Below are positions 11,755-27,311 of a stretch of 64,000 nucleotides of DNA, one piece after another. The translations under genes were made by a program, and so were the position numbers. Numbering within the stretch: position 1 is the stretch's first letter; each line of letters begins with the position of its first letter. Location: assembly GCA_949373095.1 (NCBI GenBank), contig CASIBY010000018.1:62001-126000 (forward strand). Reading direction: 5' to 3'. The notes under the pieces were generated by a model. The model was not told where the DNA came from. It saw only the letters and a program-made list of their open reading frames with translations, and ran no database searches. The DNA comes from Candidatus Poseidoniaceae archaeon (GTDB lineage: Archaea; Thermoplasmatota; Poseidoniia; Poseidoniales; Poseidoniaceae).

Positions 11755-11956
11755 ACGGACCCCTTATCCAACGGCAGGCACCTATGGTTTGAGTGTTGTG
11801 TGAGTCCTTGCTCATGAGATGCGATTCTTTGAGGCTAGGAGTCATGAGCGAAACCGATAATTATGCTTTATGAGCGCGATTTTGAGGCGATTTGTTGACT
11901 TATTGTATAGTCAAGAAGGAGCCCCTTTCAAATACCCTGAAAGTCCGGTGCGTCTT

Positions 11957-14900
11957 ATGAATCCAACCCGAAGGGCTGTGAACGACTCTCGAGCGGCTGG
12001 CCGCGCCCTATCGATGGTGCTGCTGATGGTGCTCATGTCAATGGCGCCATTGCTTACCCTTCAGACGGTTTCGGCTCATGCTGAACCCAGTGGAGTAACA
12101 TGGCCGCTGGAGGGAAGTAACGACACCGGGTGGGTGACCCTCGATGCCATCGGAGCAAACGACTCGGGTAACGGTGCTCAAGCAAGCGCAGATTGGAATC
12201 TGAGTTTTGCGCCCGGGGCCGAATTATCTAACGTCACGCTTGAAATTCGAGTGAGTGGAGAAGATGGAATGGTGATTGAAGGGCCGCTGCTTGCTGTTGA
12301 TGGAATGGGAACAAGTCTGTTTGACTGGTCCGGTTCCGGCATGCTGGGTGAATCCAATCAGTTTGACAATGGTGCCGTGTACGAAGGTCGTTTGAATCCG
12401 AACAGCAATTCGGATGCAGGTTGGACATTACCCTCTGATGCTGAAATTACAGAAATGGTCATTCAAGCCCTTGCTCCCGTTGACCCTGCGGTATCACTAC
12501 GTCCAGTTGAATCCGTCATCCACGACTATGCGGTTCATCCTGAACTTGGATTCATGTATATCGCAGTGAACGATGATCTTCTCATGCTTGATGTCAACGC
12601 GAACCCCATCGTCATTGATATGATGGAATTTACGAATTATTTGGGCATAGATGAAATGGTCGTTGATGCAAACAATGGCCTCCTTCATCTCCTTGCCGGC
12701 GACGGCACAATGCATGCGTTATCTTTGGATAATTCAAGCTTCCAACCTGCCCTACCATCTCTCACAGAATCGTTTGATACCTTCATACTAACAACGAGCG
12801 GTGAAGTCTTCGGAGCTGACGCTAGTGGAGTTTCACAGTGGGACGGTGTCGGTTGGAACAGCGTTCAAACAACCAATGCAGGAACGATCATTCCGGAAGC
12901 GGCTACAACCATGATTGAAGTCAATGGTGTCCTCTACACTGCGTTTGAAGGCGCTGGAGTATACAGATACGACTTGACAACAAACGCTCCGCTCTCGTCT
13001 TGGAATACCGGAAATACGCTTCATTCCGATGATGTTACAACACTGGCTGTTTCTGGAAACCAACTCCTGTTGGGCTCGTCCGATAACGGTCTTGCTCGAT
13101 TTGATTACTCGGCCGGCTTCTGGCTCTCCACATGGACTGCCTCGAATTGGCTTGACAGCAACGATATCGCCGGCCTTGCAAGAGTTGGAGATAACCTCTT
13201 TATTCTCAACGGTCCATCCCTCCATGTCTACAATACTACGAATGGAATATTCTCCACCACATACGCACTCTCTGACTTCGGTTTGCAATCCGAGCCCGAG
13301 GCAATGATGGTATGGGCCAGCCTCGGTCAAGCCTCACCAAGTCAAACAGGGTTGCTTATCAGCGACGGAGAAGGAACACTCGCACATTTGACCCCCGGAA
13401 ACAACCCGATATTGGAAGGGAACATCATGCTCTCAAGTGGACCCACTACGGACGAAATGGGCCTCATTGAGGAGATCAACGGAATCCTTTACATCACAGG
13501 TAACGATGGAACTGGAATCAACCGATTCGACATAGGCAATACGCTTTGGTTACCATCTTGGCCGTTGGCTGATGATGTACAGGCCATGGGCTCAGATGGG
13601 ACGGATTTGTTCCTTGCAACGTCCAACAGCACTGTTGTCCAGCACTCATCTTCAGGTACCGTCCTAAATCAGTGGAACGGACAAGGCTGCTGGGCAACAG
13701 GCTCTGATTTCCTGAGTCTTGACATGAATGCGGATTCAATCGTGGTATCGTTGGAGAACGGTGGGTTTGCAATCATCAATCGTTCACAACCGCAACAATC
13801 TGCATCCTCATGTATCGGTTACGACACTACCAACGGAGTTCCTTCATCCCTTCTTGGAGATGTTGTCCTCAACGGTGGGAGGGCTTATGTGGCTACCGAA
13901 GACAAAGGTATTCTTCGCTATGATATCACCAACGATTCATGGCTAACTCCGTGGGGCTCAACCGGAATTAACGGTGTAAGTTATGCTGGTGTTGCCATGG
14001 TTGGCGACATCCTTCACCTTGGCCTTCAAGGGTACGGCGTTGTCCGAAAGGACATTTCAACTGGAGAGATCCTTGCACCAATTCTTGCTAGTGGGCGGAA
14101 TGCTCCTTTACCAAGCAACCAAATCTATGCGCTTGCAAGTGACGGTTACAACCTCTATATTGGTACGCAACAAGGTGCTCGAAAATGGGACGGAACACAA
14201 ACGACAAGCTTCGGCCAAGGGAGCAGTTGGCAAACCCGTCCAACGCAATTCTATGACTTTGCAGTTGATGCAAGCATCTCAGGAGGTTTCATCTACGCAG
14301 GTACCAACATCGGTGTATGCAAGTACAGCATTGCAACGATGGGCGTCAGTGATTGTCAAAACGTCTACGATGGTATGCCCAACTGGGCTACCTACAGCGT
14401 GAGTTACGACAGCAACTATGTCTATGGAGGCACTACATCGGGAGTCGGGCTCATCACAAAATCAAACTTCCAACATGACTACAATTGGGGAGAAGGCACC
14501 CAAACAGAAAATGCTGTTGTGGAAATCATGGGAGATATAGCCTACATCGGCACCGATGGTCTAGGCGTCCTGCGTTACAACATCACCTCTAACGAATGGC
14601 TCACGCCGTTCACCGAAGACAACGGTGTTCTCGACGGTGGAAATGATGATGTTACTGGAATGGTTGCAGATATCCGTCAAAACCTACTCTGGGTCGGTGG
14701 AAGTGATGGGTTCCAACTCATCAACGTCACCACCGGAGGCGAGGCTTACGACATTGAGAAATCAGACAATCTCTACAGCGCTAATGGAGATCCGTATGGC
14801 ATGATTATTCATAACAACATCATGTATTATCATTCACTTACCGCTAGTGATGAAGTAAGTCGTCTTGACGTATTTAACCTCACCAATCTAGGCAACATTG

Positions 14901-17900
14901 ACATCGGCTCCCAAGTAGGTGAAAACGGTGGAGATATTGTTGGTATGGATTTAGTTGGAGACATTCTCATGACCAGTGTCGTATCTCCTCAATGGTGGAA
15001 TTCTGACGGCTCAGGCGGTATTGGAATGTGGAACACTACAAGCAATTCTTTCGAAACCAACATCCTCCCAACAGGTTCAGTTGACAGAGTTACTTCGTAC
15101 CGTTCAGCCACCGGGAACACATGGGTGTCTTGGGGTGAACTCAAACTTGACCTTTATGCTCCAAACGGAACCCTCGTCAACTCTTGGGATAACTACGAAC
15201 TTCCAATTCGCGGCATAGTAGAATATGATGGTCATGTCCTCTTCGCAGCCGAAGATGGAGTTCATCGCTACAATGAAACCTCCAACCAGTGGGCCGCAAA
15301 ATGGACTGCAGGAAACGGACTTCCAACCAATGCAGGAACAATATTCTACGAGCTGTGGACGGACGGTTCCAACCTCGCTGTTGGAGGAGCACGGTTCCAA
15401 GGATGGGGTGGATTCGCTGAGGGAATTATTTCTCTACGTGACAGCACTGGCGCCTGGTCGTCGTACGCAGCCGACTCATACACAAATATTCCAAACGGAT
15501 ATCCAATTTCAATGGAGATATGCGGTGGAGCACTCAACATTGCCATGTTCAACAACAACGGTGGAATTGCCCGCATCGACCTTCAAAATCAAACCGTACT
15601 GTCAGGATTTGACCGCTCACAACTCGACGGAACTTCCCCAGCGTCCGTGACTTGCGACTCCTCGGACACCCTCTACATCGGATACTATAACGACGATCAA
15701 CCCATTTCCAAATACAGTTTTTCCACAAGCTCATTCCTTGCAAGTTTGACAACAACGAGTCACAACTTACCAAGTGACCGTATCTGGTACGATTCTCTCG
15801 CTCACGCAAACGGGCAACTTATCGTTGGCCACGGTATTGGTAACTCGGGCTCTAATCTCATCGGCGGAGGATACTCCGTGATGTCGTCAAACGGTGCAAC
15901 GACCACTCAAGCCAACGTGCAAAGCGGTGGTTCATCTGTAACCTCCTTCCAATGGCTTGGAGGCACAACAGGCTGGATGATGGGGCAAGCTGGCGGTTCA
16001 TCAGGCTACAGTCACGTCTCAACACTGTCCACACTCGGCATGCAGAAAGTCGTCGACCTCCCAGGCCTTGTTAGTGGTCAGATTACAGCAATGGCTGGAA
16101 ACTCAACTCACATTTGGGCCGCAACAGGCGGTCAACCAGCCCAAGGCCAATTCTCAGGCAACGGCGCTGGCCTCCTTCAAGGAACCTTCCAGCCCAATGG
16201 TGATGTTCAGTGGGAATATGGGTGGACTATGGCTGCGAACTCTCGCGCTACGGATTTCTACCTTCAAGGAGACCAACTCTACATTGCAAGCAATCCTACA
16301 GGATTGATGAAGCTCGATGTCCTCAATAAGAATCTAGCTTCAATTACCGGCTCTCTTCACGACAAATTTGACCAAATGGAACTCTACAACAATCACCTCG
16401 TTATCGGTTTAGCCGGTGAAGGAGGAAGCCCTCCTGGCGTCCAAACCTTCGACCTCAATACGCAACAGTTTGACGGAGGACGGCTTATCGCAGGCCTGCC
16501 ATCCAATATTGTCAACGGATTTGACGATTCAAGCAACATCATGTACATCGGAACAAATGGTGGGCTTGGTCGGTTTAACATCACAACAGCAACAAACGAT
16601 TGGATGGATTCAGTAACGATCAACAGCGGCCTCCAAGACAATGTCATTGAAGACGTTCTAGTAATCGGAACCAATGTCTTCCTCGCTACCCCGTCTGGAC
16701 TGATCATTTGGGATGAAATCACTGAAACATCCACTCTCATGGACACATCTGACGGACTGATGGCTACCTCCACATGGGGCCTCACCAAGATACCCGTTGG
16801 ACAAATGGCACCGGCCCCTGTTCTTGTCCTGAGTCACGATGGTCGCGGAGCAGACCGTCCCGGTGTTACGATGATTAACGTCGGAACCATGCAAGTCATC
16901 TCAACCCACAGGTTTGACCAATTACCATCCAACACTGTGACCGCCCTAACTGGCGATTGGTGGGGCTTACACATTGCAACTGATATCGGCCCAATGACCC
17001 ACTGGAATTCTTCTGATACAATGTTTGAGGACGGTTTGGCATCCTATCAAACTCCCACTTGGCCGGTTGAAGGAATGATGAGCAACGGCGACGAACTCAT
17101 CGCATTCAGCAGTTCTTCGGCTACGCTAAGCGAATCAAGAACAAACAGCCATGCACGACTCACATCATTCAATCAAGGCGACATCGTTGATGGAATCGTA
17201 ACTGGGTCTCATGTATGGCTCACAACAACGGAAGGATTGGTTGGATGGCAGACTAACGGCCAATATACTGAGGTTGATGATTACACAATGAGAAGAGCCC
17301 ACCCTCTCACCGTCCGAGCCCTCTCAAACTCTCAGGGAACAGGTGGTTCAGGCCTCAATATCACGGACATGACACATCCTGGCGTTGACATTCCCTTGGT
17401 GGACCCAACCGCGCCCTTCGCTCTCGACGCCACCAAAGGAAGTGCTGGCCCTCATGGAATCATGTTGCAAAAGGTCCCTCTTGTGTTCACCTCTTCCGAA
17501 AACGGTGCGGCGATATGGGCTCGTTCAATGTCGGTAAAATACGATGCAACCGTCGACCTCAGTCAAGACCCGAATCTCGGTTCAACGCTTCAATTAGCTC
17601 TTGATAACGGATTGCTTTACGACAATACTCGCCATGTTAAACTCCGGCTCTATTCACCGTCAAACGGTTCGATGGAAGCCAGAATTACCTACGACTACAT
17701 TCGCACTGACACACCTGTTGACATGGAAGGTCTTGTTGACCGTCCTGATGACGGCGGAAGTACATTGACCGCATCTTGGTCTTTGGTCCATGACGAGGAC
17801 TTCTCACGATACCTCATTTTCCTCAATGAAGGCCCGTGGGCTACCGCACCGAACGAGCTTGCTTTGATGGGACAAACACCCGACAAGGCAGTTTCCCTTC

Positions 17901-20305
17901 ACAGTCGCCTCGGGGCTGACATTGAAACTGCAAATGGACAACCCATCAAGGACGGAACGGATTACTACGGCGTTATCGTGGTTGAATATACCGACGGACG
18001 ATGGGGAGAAGTCTCTGCTCCGTTTGGCCCTGCATCATCTTCAGATGAAATTCCAAGCGCCCCGCTGTGGGCAACTGCAAGCGCTATGGGGAGCAATGGA
18101 GAAGATGGTGACCTTGAACTTGAATGGGCCCGGTGTACGGCTCTTGACCTTGCTAGGACCAATGTATACGTCTCAACAACAGTCATGACCGACGCATTGG
18201 GGCTGTCAGTGGAAACCTCCTATCTTCCGAACCAAGGAAATCAAAGCATCCTGTCGCTCGCACCAGCAGTTCCTGTTTGGATCGGGTTCACCTGTGTTGA
18301 TGAAGCGGGACAAGAAAATCTCTCTGATGTCACGATTGTCGGACCAGTCGTTCCAACCGGTGAGCTCAACGATAATCAAGCCCCTGAACCAATCGAAGGC
18401 ACCACTGCCGCAGATATTCCTGAGGATGAAGGCGGGCGCATTTCCGTAATGTGGAACCAAAGTTCAGCTGAAGATTGTGCCTTTTACACCGTATTCATGA
18501 AACTGGGTGGAGATTCCAGCAATGATGGTATCATTGGAAATGTCGATGGGTTTTCCCAAGCAGCCGTCATCAACTCTTGTGAAGATACAGAGACTACAAT
18601 CACCTCCCTTGATGGGGTGCCCTTGATCGACGGCCAGATCTATTCCCTCGGTGTCGTTGCTTACGATGTGTGGTTGAATGGGAATATCGACAGCGTACGA
18701 ATCGTCACGGCCACGCCTTTCCAGAACATCATCGGGTCAGGTAGCGCACCTGAGCGAATCTCATCTCTACTTGCCTTTGACCACGCAAACGATGATGGAA
18801 CATCTATCGATGTCGTCTGGACGCCTTCTGGCGCAGATGATTTCGCTTCCTATACCGTGTGGGTTGCAAACCAACCTGTAGATGACCTGGCTTTGGCTTA
18901 CGCCACCTTTGGAACAAATCCAGATGTATGTGGTTGTTTCACATTCAACAAGCAATGGATTGATGAACGAACAAACTCAATTGAACTCACCATTTCAACA
19001 GCATTGTACGGTGATTCGACGTTAACAGCATCTACGCCTCAGTTAATTCAGCCCGATATTGAACTCTTTGTGGCTATAACCGTTCATGACCTCAAAGGAA
19101 ACGTACATCTTACGGACCTTACTCAGGCAACGGTCACACCGATTGACAACATCAATGACAACACAGCTCCTGACCGATTGACTGACCTGGAACTAACTGA
19201 CCGTCCTAACGATGACGGAAGCGCTCTTCTTCTTGACTTTGAACTGTCAACTGCAGATGATATTGCCTACTATGAAGTCTATGCGGCTACCTTTGAGTTC
19301 AATGCTGCAAATCCAAATGGCCAAGCCTTGACTGCCATAGCCACCTTGGACAGAAACCCTTCACTTCCACTCACCATTGATATCGTTGCTGGAGACACTC
19401 CTGTCATTCCTGGCCAAGATATCTGGGTCGCTGTTGTGGCAGTTGATACTTCGGGTAATGCGCACACAACTGACCTAACCGTGGCCAAAGCTCAATCTAT
19501 TGACGACGGAGTTACGGATCCTGGGAACTACCTCCCGGACATTGAATCTGTTACCGCTACGTGGGACATGGAGACCAATATCTTCGTTGAATGGGACCAC
19601 TCGACCGATGCACAAGTTCGTGGCTACCATGTTTACATCTCCGATTCCGCCTTTGAAGACATTACAGATGCGACAATGGTTGGCGATGTCAAGGCATCCA
19701 ATTCGTTTTTGATTACCCCAAGCCTGTTTGAAGAACTTGACAACAAAAGTGCATGGTATGTCGCTGTAACTCCGTATGATGAAAGCCTCAGCAAGGAGAC
19801 CGTCACCACGTTCAAACTGAATGCACTCGGCGATGACGGGAAAGGGTCTGTGGATGGAGATGATTCTGGACAATTGTCGCTTGAATCACTTCTTAGTGGA
19901 CCGAATTTGATCGCTGCTGGAATGCTCATCATCGTCTTGCTCTTGGCCGTACTTGTTGTTCGCTCGAGAGGAGGCAGTAATCGCCGCTCAAAGAGTTGGG
20001 AACTGCAAGAAGCAACATGGGGCATCCAAGACCAAGGCTGGGGAGACACTCCCGGCCAGGCCCCTCCTGCACCGGCCACACCTGCTCCTGCTGCAGCAGA
20101 AGGTGTTTCTCAGCAACAAGCGACTGACATCTACGCCGCTGCAAACCAAATCCAATCGAACAATTACGGACGCACAGAATACCAATCAGTTCAGCCGGTA
20201 TTACAACCACAAGTTCGTACTGATGTGCTGGATGACCTCTTGGGTGGACAAACTCCACCAACTTCGCCACAAATTGATACATCGTTCCTTGATGATCTTC
20301 TCTGA
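11957..20305 (+). CDS. Giant secreted/membrane-anchored beta-propeller and Fn3-repeat surface protein
   Basis: ~2780 aa; signal-like N-terminus, many ~40-50 aa blade repeats (LLLGSSDNGLARFDYSAG..), several Fn3-like units with RPNDDGS motif, C-terminal TM helix IAAGMLIIVLLLAVLVV and cytoplasmic tail; alternative start 11870. Confidence 0.9.
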   Translation: MNPTRRAVNDSRAAGRALSMVLLMVLMSMAPLLTLQTVSAHAEPSGVTWPLEGSNDTGWVTLDAIGANDSGNGAQASADWNLSFAPGAELSNVTLEIRVSGEDGMVIEGPLLAVDGMGTSLFDWSGSGMLGESNQFDNGAVYEGRLNPNSNSDAGWTLPSDAEITEMVIQALAPVDPAVSLRPVESVIHDYAVHPELGFMYIAVNDDLLMLDVNANPIVIDMMEFTNYLGIDEMVVDANNGLLHLLAGDGTMHALSLDNSSFQPALPSLTESFDTFILTTSGEVFGADASGVSQWDGVGWNSVQTTNAGTIIPEAATTMIEVNGVLYTAFEGAGVYRYDLTTNAPLSSWNTGNTLHSDDVTTLAVSGNQLLLGSSDNGLARFDYSAGFWLSTWTASNWLDSNDIAGLARVGDNLFILNGPSLHVYNTTNGIFSTTYALSDFGLQSEPEAMMVWASLGQASPSQTGLLISDGEGTLAHLTPGNNPILEGNIMLSSGPTTDEMGLIEEINGILYITGNDGTGINRFDIGNTLWLPSWPLADDVQAMGSDGTDLFLATSNSTVVQHSSSGTVLNQWNGQGCWATGSDFLSLDMNADSIVVSLENGGFAIINRSQPQQSASSCIGYDTTNGVPSSLLGDVVLNGGRAYVATEDKGILRYDITNDSWLTPWGSTGINGVSYAGVAMVGDILHLGLQGYGVVRKDISTGEILAPILASGRNAPLPSNQIYALASDGYNLYIGTQQGARKWDGTQTTSFGQGSSWQTRPTQFYDFAVDASISGGFIYAGTNIGVCKYSIATMGVSDCQNVYDGMPNWATYSVSYDSNYVYGGTTSGVGLITKSNFQHDYNWGEGTQTENAVVEIMGDIAYIGTDGLGVLRYNITSNEWLTPFTEDNGVLDGGNDDVTGMVADIRQNLLWVGGSDGFQLINVTTGGEAYDIEKSDNLYSANGDPYGMIIHNNIMYYHSLTASDEVSRLDVFNLTNLGNIDIGSQVGENGGDIVGMDLVGDILMTSVVSPQWWNSDGSGGIGMWNTTSNSFETNILPTGSVDRVTSYRSATGNTWVSWGELKLDLYAPNGTLVNSWDNYELPIRGIVEYDGHVLFAAEDGVHRYNETSNQWAAKWTAGNGLPTNAGTIFYELWTDGSNLAVGGARFQGWGGFAEGIISLRDSTGAWSSYAADSYTNIPNGYPISMEICGGALNIAMFNNNGGIARIDLQNQTVLSGFDRSQLDGTSPASVTCDSSDTLYIGYYNDDQPISKYSFSTSSFLASLTTTSHNLPSDRIWYDSLAHANGQLIVGHGIGNSGSNLIGGGYSVMSSNGATTTQANVQSGGSSVTSFQWLGGTTGWMMGQAGGSSGYSHVSTLSTLGMQKVVDLPGLVSGQITAMAGNSTHIWAATGGQPAQGQFSGNGAGLLQGTFQPNGDVQWEYGWTMAANSRATDFYLQGDQLYIASNPTGLMKLDVLNKNLASITGSLHDKFDQMELYNNHLVIGLAGEGGSPPGVQTFDLNTQQFDGGRLIAGLPSNIVNGFDDSSNIMYIGTNGGLGRFNITTATNDWMDSVTINSGLQDNVIEDVLVIGTNVFLATPSGLIIWDEITETSTLMDTSDGLMATSTWGLTKIPVGQMAPAPVLVLSHDGRGADRPGVTMINVGTMQVISTHRFDQLPSNTVTALTGDWWGLHIATDIGPMTHWNSSDTMFEDGLASYQTPTWPVEGMMSNGDELIAFSSSSATLSESRTNSHARLTSFNQGDIVDGIVTGSHVWLTTTEGLVGWQTNGQYTEVDDYTMRRAHPLTVRALSNSQGTGGSGLNITDMTHPGVDIPLVDPTAPFALDATKGSAGPHGIMLQKVPLVFTSSENGAAIWARSMSVKYDATVDLSQDPNLGSTLQLALDNGLLYDNTRHVKLRLYSPSNGSMEARITYDYIRTDTPVDMEGLVDRPDDGGSTLTASWSLVHDEDFSRYLIFLNEGPWATAPNELALMGQTPDKAVSLHSRLGADIETANGQPIKDGTDYYGVIVVEYTDGRWGEVSAPFGPASSSDEIPSAPLWATASAMGSNGEDGDLELEWARCTALDLARTNVYVSTTVMTDALGLSVETSYLPNQGNQSILSLAPAVPVWIGFTCVDEAGQENLSDVTIVGPVVPTGELNDNQAPEPIEGTTAADIPEDEGGRISVMWNQSSAEDCAFYTVFMKLGGDSSNDGIIGNVDGFSQAAVINSCEDTETTITSLDGVPLIDGQIYSLGVVAYDVWLNGNIDSVRIVTATPFQNIIGSGSAPERISSLLAFDHANDDGTSIDVVWTPSGADDFASYTVWVANQPVDDLALAYATFGTNPDVCGCFTFNKQWIDERTNSIELTISTALYGDSTLTASTPQLIQPDIELFVAITVHDLKGNVHLTDLTQATVTPIDNINDNTAPDRLTDLELTDRPNDDGSALLLDFELSTADDIAYYEVYAATFEFNAANPNGQALTAIATLDRNPSLPLTIDIVAGDTPVIPGQDIWVAVVAVDTSGNAHTTDLTVAKAQSIDDGVTDPGNYLPDIESVTATWDMETNIFVEWDHSTDAQVRGYHVYISDSAFEDITDATMVGDVKASNSFLITPSLFEELDNKSAWYVAVTPYDESLSKETVTTFKLNALGDDGKGSVDGDDSGQLSLESLLSGPNLIAAGMLIIVLLLAVLVVRSRGGSNRRSKSWELQEATWGIQDQGWGDTPGQAPPAPATPAPAAAEGVSQQQATDIYAAANQIQSNNYGRTEYQSVQPVLQPQVRTDVLDDLLGGQTPPTSPQIDTSFLDDLL

Positions 20306-23327: not shown

Positions 23328-23714
23328 ATGCCAGCATGCCGACACTGTGGAAGCACCTACCCGCGTGAATTCTTCATTCACGGAGTTGGACCTCGTGCGC
23401 AGGTATGTGCACAATGCGGGATAGACCAGGGCTTGGTCACCAAGGAGGAAGTTCCTATTCTCTTTGAAAAAGAACTTGCAAACGCCCGTTTCTCCGCTGT
23501 GGCTCGGCGCTACAGTATTTTCCTTTACATCCCATTCCTTTGGGCTCTGTGGGGATTTACCCTTTCGGATGTCAAACCCTGGGGGCTCTTCTTCCTCGGA
23601 CTACTGATTGTCCTCACACTTCTCGCACCGATTATCTTCATCTACCGAGGTGGACGATACTCCGGAGATATGGCTCGTTTGAGCCCAGCATATGACCGTC
23701 CAAAAGGTCACTGA
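23328..23714 (+). CDS. Zinc-ribbon membrane protein
   Basis: MPACRHCGSTYPREFFIHGVGPRAQVCAQCG followed by two TM helices. Confidence 0.65.
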   Translation: MPACRHCGSTYPREFFIHGVGPRAQVCAQCGIDQGLVTKEEVPILFEKELANARFSAVARRYSIFLYIPFLWALWGFTLSDVKPWGLFFLGLLIVLTLLAPIIFIYRGGRYSGDMARLSPAYDRPKGH

Positions 23715-25020: not shown

Positions 25021-27015
25021 TCATTCTTCCTCGGAGCTTGCCGAGGGAATGATGTCGTAGTCTCGCTTGATTTGAGCAATGGCAATATCAAGTTCTGGAA
25101 GGTTAAGTTCTCCATCACCATCTAGGTCCATGATTTCCATCAATTCACCCGATTCAACGGAGGATAGCGCGTCAATATCTGTTGCCTGAAGAGCGGTGAG
25201 GAATTCTTCACCGTCGACTTTGCCTGAAGCATCCAAATCCATGGAACGGAATAGGTCGAAGACTGATTGGCCACTGTCGGTAAGGTATTGGACGAGTTGA
25301 ATCATGGCTTCTGTTGGAGCCTTTGGAGGGAACTCTGTGATCTCGTCGTTGTGGAGTGAGGAGTCAACGGCGATGATGGTTGAGCCACCCTCGATGTCCT
25401 CGGTTTGACTGACAACCAATTCCGTATCAACACCAACACCTCGGCCAATGAGTGTGCGGATGGTGGTTGAAGAGCCTGCTACGAGGGTGTAGGTGTTCAC
25501 ATCAGAAACGGTTTCGGGTGATACCGAGCGTCCTAATGAGGAAATACCGGTTCGGATGGTCACGAGGGTTGCAAGAATACTTCCAATTCCAAGAATGTAG
25601 AACATTGCTGCTCCGGTGAGGAAGAAACCACCCGAGGGGGCTACAACATCTTCGATTCCTGAGGTTGTGATAGCGTTGGTTGTGAAATCGCCAACGAGGA
25701 AAGTAACGGTAGAGGTAACTCCTCCAACGAGAACCATCCAAACTGCTAGGTTGGCAGTTGATGGAGTGGCGAGTGGTTTTCCAATGGCCATTGGATAGCT
25801 GTTGAATACAGAGGAAAGAATGAGCAAGCCTCCGACAGTAAACATCATTCCCATGTCAATGGTATGTGCCATAGCGCCGAGTTCTCCGGTTCCAACAAAG
25901 ATATCCATTGATGTGAAATAGCCGCCAATAGCGAAGAATGGAAGAAGGACAAAGGCGAGCATGCCAGCCATTGAACCTGGGTTCTTTACCACAGAATCCA
26001 TACCTGCATTTGCGGTCATGATGATGTTCACTGAACCTGCGAATATTGGAAGCAATCCTAGTGTAAGGAGAATGGCTCCGAGGTTCACTAAAACGTTGCC
26101 ACCCTCGCCGGCAGACATGAAGAATGGAGGGAGTGTGACAAACAACAGAAGCATGCTTGCAGAGCGCATCGATGGTGACCAAATGGGTTTCTCTGAAACC
26201 ATTGGGACTGTGTAGTACCCTACCGAGAACATTAGAGCAAGAGGGACCCATCCGTTCGAGACACGCTCACCAAGCCAGACGGTTTGGGTTGAGTCGGCCA
26301 ATTCGCCCAAGAAGATGTAGACCATTGCGAAAATCTTGGAAACAAGAGCCATGATGAGGAACCAAGAACTGGTTGAGAGTTCTTGTTCTCCACGGGTAGC
26401 AGTTGTCAGAAGAACGTTGATGAGTACCGGGATCAGAAGAAGCCCAATTGCAAGTGATTCCAAGCTAAGCAGAAGGGTTGAGATGACTGTTGATTCGGTA
26501 TCAACATCAAGGAAACCAAAGATGAAGGGGAGTAGAACGCTCGCAATCAGAACAACCGTCAACAACAAAGCAACCATTGATGCGTTTGCTTCACTGGCAA
26601 GACGACCATTTCCGTTTCGGGAAACAGCGATGAGTCCTCCACCGACAAGACCGTAGAGAAGAGCCAAACCAAGAAGGTTCAGCGTAGCATCACGAAGGGA
26701 TGAGCCGTCGTCGTAAGACCAGCCAATGCTTGCTAGGGAGTCGAGAGCCGTAGGATCGTAGTTGTGCCAGGCTGCCAAAAACCCAAGGACGCTTGCGAAG
26801 ACAAACCAAAGCATTCCGAAGTTCATCCATGTACGGGAACCGCTACCATCTTTGTCATCAAAAATATCAACAAGGCCGGGTGGGTTCTTCCTGAGAATAA
26901 ACAACCCGATTTGTTGGAGCGCCCCTCCCACGTTTCCTGCACCACGTGCAAGAGTTTGAGAAAGAAAGAAAAGAACCGCAATAAGAAGCGTGCCGGTAAT
27001 AAAAATAGTTTCCAT
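25021..27015 (-). CDS. Multi-TM protein resembling heme-copper oxidase subunit I (CcoN-like) without most ligand histidines, C-terminal EF-hand pair
   Basis: SLRDATLNLLGLALLYGLVGGGL, GWVPLALMFSVGYYTVPMVSEKPIWS, MAHTIDMG positions parallel CcoN motifs; DLDASGKVDGEE and DLDGDGELNLPE are EF-hand loops. Confidence 0.6.
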   Translation of the reverse strand: METIFITGTLLIAVLFFLSQTLARGAGNVGGALQQIGLFILRKNPPGLVDIFDDKDGSGSRTWMNFGMLWFVFASVLGFLAAWHNYDPTALDSLASIGWSYDDGSSLRDATLNLLGLALLYGLVGGGLIAVSRNGNGRLASEANASMVALLLTVVLIASVLLPFIFGFLDVDTESTVISTLLLSLESLAIGLLLIPVLINVLLTTATRGEQELSTSSWFLIMALVSKIFAMVYIFLGELADSTQTVWLGERVSNGWVPLALMFSVGYYTVPMVSEKPIWSPSMRSASMLLLFVTLPPFFMSAGEGGNVLVNLGAILLTLGLLPIFAGSVNIIMTANAGMDSVVKNPGSMAGMLAFVLLPFFAIGGYFTSMDIFVGTGELGAMAHTIDMGMMFTVGGLLILSSVFNSYPMAIGKPLATPSTANLAVWMVLVGGVTSTVTFLVGDFTTNAITTSGIEDVVAPSGGFFLTGAAMFYILGIGSILATLVTIRTGISSLGRSVSPETVSDVNTYTLVAGSSTTIRTLIGRGVGVDTELVVSQTEDIEGGSTIIAVDSSLHNDEITEFPPKAPTEAMIQLVQYLTDSGQSVFDLFRSMDLDASGKVDGEEFLTALQATDIDALSSVESGELMEIMDLDGDGELNLPELDIAIAQIKRDYDIIPSASSEEE

Positions 27016-27029
27016 ACATCACACCTCCA

Positions 27030-27311
27030 TCATTCTGCGAGTACCTCACCCACGAGCGTTGCTACAATTGCACCAACGCCAACAATAAATCCAATCAAGT
27101 AGTACCAGATTCCGCTACCGCCCAAATTCTGGACCAAAGGAACGAGTTCTCCAAGCAACGGAAGGTTGTCCCACCCGAAGACATTTGCAAACAAAGAATA
27201 GAGGCCCAAAAGGCCAACAAAGAACAACGTGAGAATCACGCGACTTGATGTTGGTTCTCCTGTTCCGACGGTTGTATCTGGAAGGGTTGTGGAATTTGAC
27301 ACGGGCCTCAC
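27030..27311 (-). CDS. Small two-TM membrane protein, predicted partner of the downstream CcoN-like protein
   Basis: 93 aa; ILTLFFVGLLGLYSLFANVFG and IWYYLIGFIVGVGAIVATLV; 14 nt from next gene on same strand. Confidence 0.6.
   Translation of the reverse strand: MRPVSNSTTLPDTTVGTGEPTSSRVILTLFFVGLLGLYSLFANVFGWDNLPLLGELVPLVQNLGGSGIWYYLIGFIVGVGAIVATLVGEVLAE

Follow-up and report, generated by a model that had tools for sequence, protein, structure and literature searches.

The locus and its two genes

On the reverse strand of the window (the whole 64,000-nucleotide stretch of DNA that was analysed, from a genome of Poseidoniales, the marine group II archaea), positions 25021–27015 hold an open reading frame with an ATG start whose product, a membrane protein of 664 residues, matches CcoN, the subunit I of cbb3 oxidases, in profile and in fold, and is predicted by alignment to lack the ligands of the heme-copper oxidases (HCOs). 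All features described below lie on this same strand. The protein begins with an additional membrane helix (residues 2–24, 26944–27012), assigned by DSSP on an AlphaFold model and lying outside the CcoN match, followed by a short and probably amphipathic helix ahead of TM1 (residues 30–43, 26887–26928) in which F39 and K43 are near-invariant. The 12 model helices of the HCO core then occupy residues 58–491 (25543–26844) and match the CcoN structure over about 480 columns. Past TM12 come a conserved, presumably cytoplasmic motif in the TTIRTLIGRGVGVDT region (residues 516–534, 25414–25470) and a module with a pair of EF-hands (residues 564–653, 25057–25326). The protein has no cysteine, 27 methionines and, just as the sequence-only reading had counted, exactly three histidines (H84, H384 and H555).

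Only 14 nt upstream lies a second gene (27030–27311), whose 93-aa product is predicted to have two membrane helices and lacks a CxxCH motif. Each of the 150 loci of the HCO-like gene has a same-strand homolog of this small protein, at a median gap of 12 nt and within 150 nt in 147 cases, so that the pair behaves like a single unit. The order RaSEA (archaeosine) radical SAM gene, 93-aa gene, HCO-like gene and YchF-like GTPase gene is conserved in both families of Poseidoniales, namely Poseidoniaceae and a second family taken as Thalassarchaeaceae. With these as neighbours, no CcoO or CcoP cytochrome c gene lies beside the HCO-like gene, no respiratory gene is encoded near the locus, and the CxxCH heme motif is absent from the aligned set of 93-aa partners.

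Of 146 genomes of the class, 121 gave relatives in a protein search; when a profile of the membrane part (A2) was run against 394 genomes of the phylum, 125 were positive, one of them through a marginal match of 66 positions. When this match is excluded, 124 of the 127 Poseidoniales genomes are positive and none outside the order is, i.e., the HCO-like gene is a near-universal core gene of Poseidoniales. One contig labelled as a Verrucomicrobiales bacterium (L092) bears the whole Poseidoniales locus and was probably mis-binned. Elsewhere in the window, a 128-aa zinc-ribbon-like membrane protein (23328–23714) is found near the locus in many Poseidoniaceae, and positions 11870–20305 encode a secreted-looking protein of 2811 aa in which propeller-like segments recur and a single membrane helix lies at the C-terminus, for which there was no Pfam match at E 0.01.

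Descent from the CcoN branch

The resemblance to CcoN had been proposed from a handful of co-linear segments. Single-sequence searches of Pfam, NCBIfam and the PDB with the window protein returned its EF-hands only, and profile methods were therefore needed. The A2 profile, run against 177,635 PDB sequences with E values up to 10 accepted, gave three matches, all of them CcoN chains (9g6b_A, 3e-9; 3mk7_A, 9e-9; 6xkw_n, 1.5e-5), co-linear across 330–370 positions. It also matched all seven plasmid-derived CcoN proteins and two CcoN-like variants, and none of 33 A- and B-type oxidases convincingly, so that the label “CcoN-type” was well chosen. In a profile–profile comparison, the HCO-like family aligned with the C-type set over 434 columns at E 9e-17 (5e-23 in a second run with other settings), where the yardstick, A/B-type against C-type HCOs, scored 3e-18 and the negative control, the unrelated multi-helix protein NuoL, scored 0.29; the co-linearity is thus real and far above chance. 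The reverse search, from the C-type profile to the HCO-like family, gave a best E of 7e-13, and in one relative the Pfam COX1 model reached 34.5 bits against a cut-off of 34.8.

Structure prediction pointed the same way. The AlphaFold model of the window protein has a pLDDT of 79 (about 90 across much of the membrane part), and that of a distant relative without EF-hands has a pLDDT of 82 and a pTM of 0.84. With both models Foldseek placed CcoN best (target-normalised TM 0.78 for the window protein, 0.81 for the distant relative), with NorB next and the ba3, aa3 and bo3 oxidases among the further matches; no protein other than an HCO occurred among the best 44 matches of the window model or the 50 listed for the distant relative. 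This search had been named beforehand as one that could refute an HCO fold, and the fold withstood it. On the evidence of profiles and models, the HCO-like protein is thus a descendant of the cbb3/CcoN branch of the HCO superfamily.

The term “paralog” calls for caution: a cbb3 oxidase was not found in the same genome, where an A-type-like COX1 is the one oxidase subunit I that was detected. This COX1 (L003, G000:C11) has a CSCHGG motif in an extension at its N-terminus and seems to continue, within a single very long frame, into a part that resembles subunit III. Evolutionary intermediates were sought in other Thermoplasmatota and none was found, the sole match outside the order being the 66-position piece (E 3e-4).

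Loss of the heme and copper ligands

The ligand positions of CcoN were mapped through the profile onto 137 distinct proteins of the family. Residues I386-D387-M388 of the window protein (25852–25860) correspond to CcoN H345 (heme b3), V346 and H347 (low-spin heme b). Histidine occurs at the H345 position in none of the 137 proteins, which mostly have V, L, I or M there, and at the H347 position in two; at the H60 position, the other low-spin heme b ligand, it is likewise found in none, the alignment there resting on two references only. A histidine of genus g16 (AAIHVVTAFG) was considered as a surviving H60, but its spacing is one residue off and it is not claimed as one. Of the CuB positions, H257 and H258 are histidine in 0/137 and 9/137, respectively, with an alignment that shifts by a few columns between references, and H207, which corresponds to R251 (26263–26265), is arginine in 70, histidine in 34, glutamine in 14 and lysine in six.

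The canonical ligand set was accordingly found in none of the 137 relatives, and no histidine, cysteine or methionine is invariant across them at the former ligand sites, which upholds the claim of the sequence-only reading that the ligands are absent. Its details fared less evenly. At most one histidine was thought to be retained; H384 is present but off the ligand positions, the b3-ligand position being I386. The CuB histidine is indeed missing from the window protein, with the nuance that a basic residue is often kept in its place (110/137: R70, H34, K6). With both the heme and the copper ligand sets lost, the HCO-like protein cannot be an oxidase. As read from the alignments and models, the family is a non-catalytic, ligand-less branch of the HCO superfamily, as had been supposed, although its heme and copper content and its activity are inferred.

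The strictest conservation is seen at W63, W70, T204, W279, S280, P323, N330 and T334, residues that are scaffold-like and partly common to CcoN. Acidic residues are also widely kept, at positions 371 (125/137), 387 (99/137) and 443 (110/137), which are D371, D387 and D443 in the window protein and all lie toward the outer ends of their helices. These acids raise the possibility of a charge cluster where the active site used to be, a suggestion made without side-chain distances.

The C-terminal tail and its EF-hands

Lysine and arginine residues cluster in alternate loops and at the C-terminus, from which a cytoplasmic C-terminus is inferred by the positive-inside rule, as expected of the HCO topology; the same loop charges would place the EF-hand pair in the cytoplasm. 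The motif past TM12, common to both families, resembles TTIRxLxxxG(V/A)GxDT, with R520, G526, D530 and T531 near-invariant. The two EF-hand loops that had been noticed behind the membrane region, DLDASGKVDGEE (residues 593–604, 25204–25239) and DLDGDGELNLPE (residues 630–641, 25093–25128), are both canonical and are detected by Pfam (EF-hand_1, 5.7e-7). Two canonical loops are retained in 94 of the 97 relatives with a long C-terminus, which suggests a real use of Ca2+, its binding being inferred from the loop residues only. An identity with the NCBIfam family XopAW was rejected, since only the EF-hand motif is shared and the score was 32 bits against a cut-off of 120.

The fusion to EF-hands described for the window protein stands for that protein, but it does not define the family, because the proteins of the other Poseidoniales family lack EF-hands and end shortly past the TM12 motif. 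Judged from the distribution of sequences, the EF-hands of the HCO-like protein are an addition of Poseidoniaceae. Tails of other kinds were also seen. The HCO-like proteins of several genera end in a SAP domain (L066:4842-7019; L060:4788-7061; L053:3109-5193; L035:2374-4200), normally a DNA-binding domain and an odd one on a membrane protein, and one relative (L062) has helix-hairpin-helix repeats instead of SAP.

The same EF-hand module on other proteins

When the EF-hand module was searched for across the class, with an E value below about 1e-10 taken to mark close relatives, all close relatives outside the HCO-like protein were found in bioenergetic membrane subunits, with one exception in an unknown protein (L261). 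All 18 genomes of the genus to which the source genome belongs, itself included, have an EF pair inserted in the complex I subunit NuoL (examples are L002:2-1561, from G000:C4 of the own genome, and L215:902-3481). In genus g2, 25 of 27 genomes have it inserted in subunit I of the A-type ATP synthase, AtpI (e.g., L213:2472-4832 and L216:4065-6473). At the C-terminus of a NuoJ-like protein encoded beside nuoL it occurs in three genomes of genus g5 and one of Thalassarchaeaceae; examples of such genes lie just upstream of nuoL (L249:2505-3080; L250:2251-2847). A weaker relative is present in NuoL of two Thalassarchaeaceae genomes (genus g18). The host proteins were confirmed by Pfam and NCBIfam, the NuoJ-like assignment being weak (E 4e-5). 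The NuoL insert sits in the loop following helix FNHAMAKGMLFMASG, between membrane helices, and the AtpI insert precedes the membrane part; both are flanked by His-rich linkers and, going by known subunit topology, should presumably face the cytoplasm.

In genera g3 and g4 this EF subfamily is found on the HCO-like protein only, more distant soluble EF proteins aside. A tree of the module has too few columns, so the order and dates of the grafts cannot be fixed. Further EF-hand proteins (L256, L257, L258 and L262) include small soluble ones and others with zinc-ribbon-like and membrane parts, and proteins that bind Ca2+ seem to be numerous in Poseidoniaceae. A survey of archaeal families (PMC9258230) also reports modules specific to Poseidoniales that contain calcium-binding domains, with no mention, in the text consulted, of the HCO-like family or of the EF grafts.

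Proposed role and rival explanations

The occurrence of the EF module on complex I and ATP synthase points the role of the HCO-like protein toward the regulation of bioenergetic complexes, and, given where the module is found, control of energy conversion by Ca2+ is the leading hypothesis. We propose, tentatively and with reservations that slightly outweigh our confidence, that the protein, free of cofactors and responsive to Ca2+, regulates the energy-converting membrane complexes or serves as their scaffold, a role inferred in the absence of any experimental function. The product of the two genes would be a cofactor-free membrane subunit that associates with these complexes, on or between them; Ca2+ on the EF-hand pair would alter the conformation or the contacts of its cytoplasmic face, and respiration or ATP synthesis would thereby track cytoplasmic Ca2+. 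The Thalassarchaeaceae form would keep the scaffold role without the Ca2+ input. The respiratory chain of marine group II comprises complexes I and II and a cytochrome oxidase but no canonical bc1 complex, and the A1Ao ATP synthase of these archaea is putatively Na+-driven (PMC6336850). Against this regulatory role it must be said that data on interaction, expression and Ca2+ binding are all lacking and that, apart from the 93-aa gene, the neighbouring genes are unrelated. The ancestral function may not have been Ca2+ sensing, because the EF subfamily is confined to the HCO-like protein in g3 and g4 and the Thalassarchaeaceae protein has no EF-hands, and the module could be a generic tag, because other EF-hand proteins occur in these genomes. 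The bolder version, in which marine group II has a dedicated layer of Ca2+ control over oxidative phosphorylation, with one EF module moved among complex I (NuoL, NuoJ-like), ATP synthase and a cofactor-free pseudo-oxidase by which they are linked or gated, is possible but on the whole doubtful.

Foremost among the rivals is conduction of ions by way of the charge cluster. A channel or transporter on the HCO scaffold, with Arg, His or Lys at the CuB position together with D371, D387 and D443 gating or carrying H+, Na+ or another cation and the EF-hands sensing Ca2+, would account for the basic residue at that position in most of the family and for the three kept acids, and asparagine at position 371 is indeed seen only in proteins whose residue 251 is non-basic. 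This co-change is phylogenetically clustered, however, and may be a single event; no charged residue along the path is invariant and the strictest conservation is scaffold-like. We rate ion conduction as unlikely. Small subunits accompany both CcoN and NorB, and the strict pairing with a small two-helix protein, like the status of core gene in both families with or without EF-hands, would also suit a respiratory-chain subunit whose role is structural or in assembly alone, e.g., one that takes the place of absent complex III or supercomplex subunits, and whose EF-hands add only Ca2+-dependent stability in Poseidoniaceae. The absence of a canonical bc1 from marine group II (PMC6336850) speaks for such a subunit, whereas the distance of the locus from respiratory genes and the canonical EF ligands kept in 94/97, suggesting real Ca2+ use, speak against it, and it is given a rather small chance.

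Two further explanations carry much less weight. A cryptic redox protein, binding heme or metal through non-canonical residues, could draw on the histidines at the H207 position (34/137) and at another CuB position (9/137) and on the methionine-rich composition, but with no histidine at the b3 position in any relative, no invariant His, Cys or Met at the former ligand sites and no CxxCH in the partner, it is very improbable. That the protein is not an HCO at all, its likeness being a convergence of membrane-helix composition, might be argued from the single-sequence Pfam scan, which found EF-hands alone; the PDB-wide profile search that returned CcoN only, the failure of the NuoL control and two models that match only HCOs, with CcoN best, already contradict it, as far as profiles and predicted structures can, and leave it hardly any room.

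Comparison with known systems

The closest known system is CcoN itself (3mk7, 9g6b, 8smr), with which the HCO-like protein shares the 12-helix fold (TM 0.78–0.81), more than 400 co-linear columns and scaffold residues (N289/T293 of CcoN correspond to N330/T334, and S236 to S280). It differs in having no heme or CuB sets, only the H207 position being still histidine in some relatives, and in its additional N-terminal helix, its EF-hand tail and the absence of CcoO/CcoP genes nearby. NorB (3o0r, 4xyd) has the HCO fold as well and forms the next-best structure group (target-normalised TM 0.69–0.74), below CcoN; the HCO-like protein has neither its heme ligand set nor a NorC. Of the heme-ligating histidines and FeB site of the NorB type, those histidine positions that CcoN also has are missing from the family, the glutamate lying outside this comparison. 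A known EF-hand regulatory domain fused to a membrane protein of energy metabolism follows the same fusion principle, but its membrane part is unrelated, and the archaeal modules are found on complex I, ATP synthase and the pseudo-oxidase.

Among archaea, the family survey describes fam02696, a hypothetical family specific to Halobacteria whose homology to HCO subunit I is distant (PMC9258230). Like the HCO-like family it is archaeal, HCO-derived by HMM comparison and without annotated function; unlike it, fam02696 is reported to be confined to Halobacteria and to lie beside cbb3/NorB genes (PMC9258230). Kinship between the two is not established.

Significance

A search of the literature, limited to open-licence papers, found no non-catalytic heme-copper oxidases. 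HCO subunit I is among the best-studied of membrane enzymes, and we know of no described branch of it that has lost its ligands completely and is yet a core gene of a whole order. Marine group II includes some of the archaea that are most abundant in surface ocean waters, and the presence there of the same EF-hand module on complex I, ATP synthase and the pseudo-oxidase would mirror, in prokaryotes, the control of mitochondrial energy metabolism by Ca2+. It would also provide a testable claim on the regulation of an unusual respiratory chain that has no canonical bc1 complex. Taken with the distribution of the module, the HCO-like protein suggests a tuning of energy conversion by calcium.
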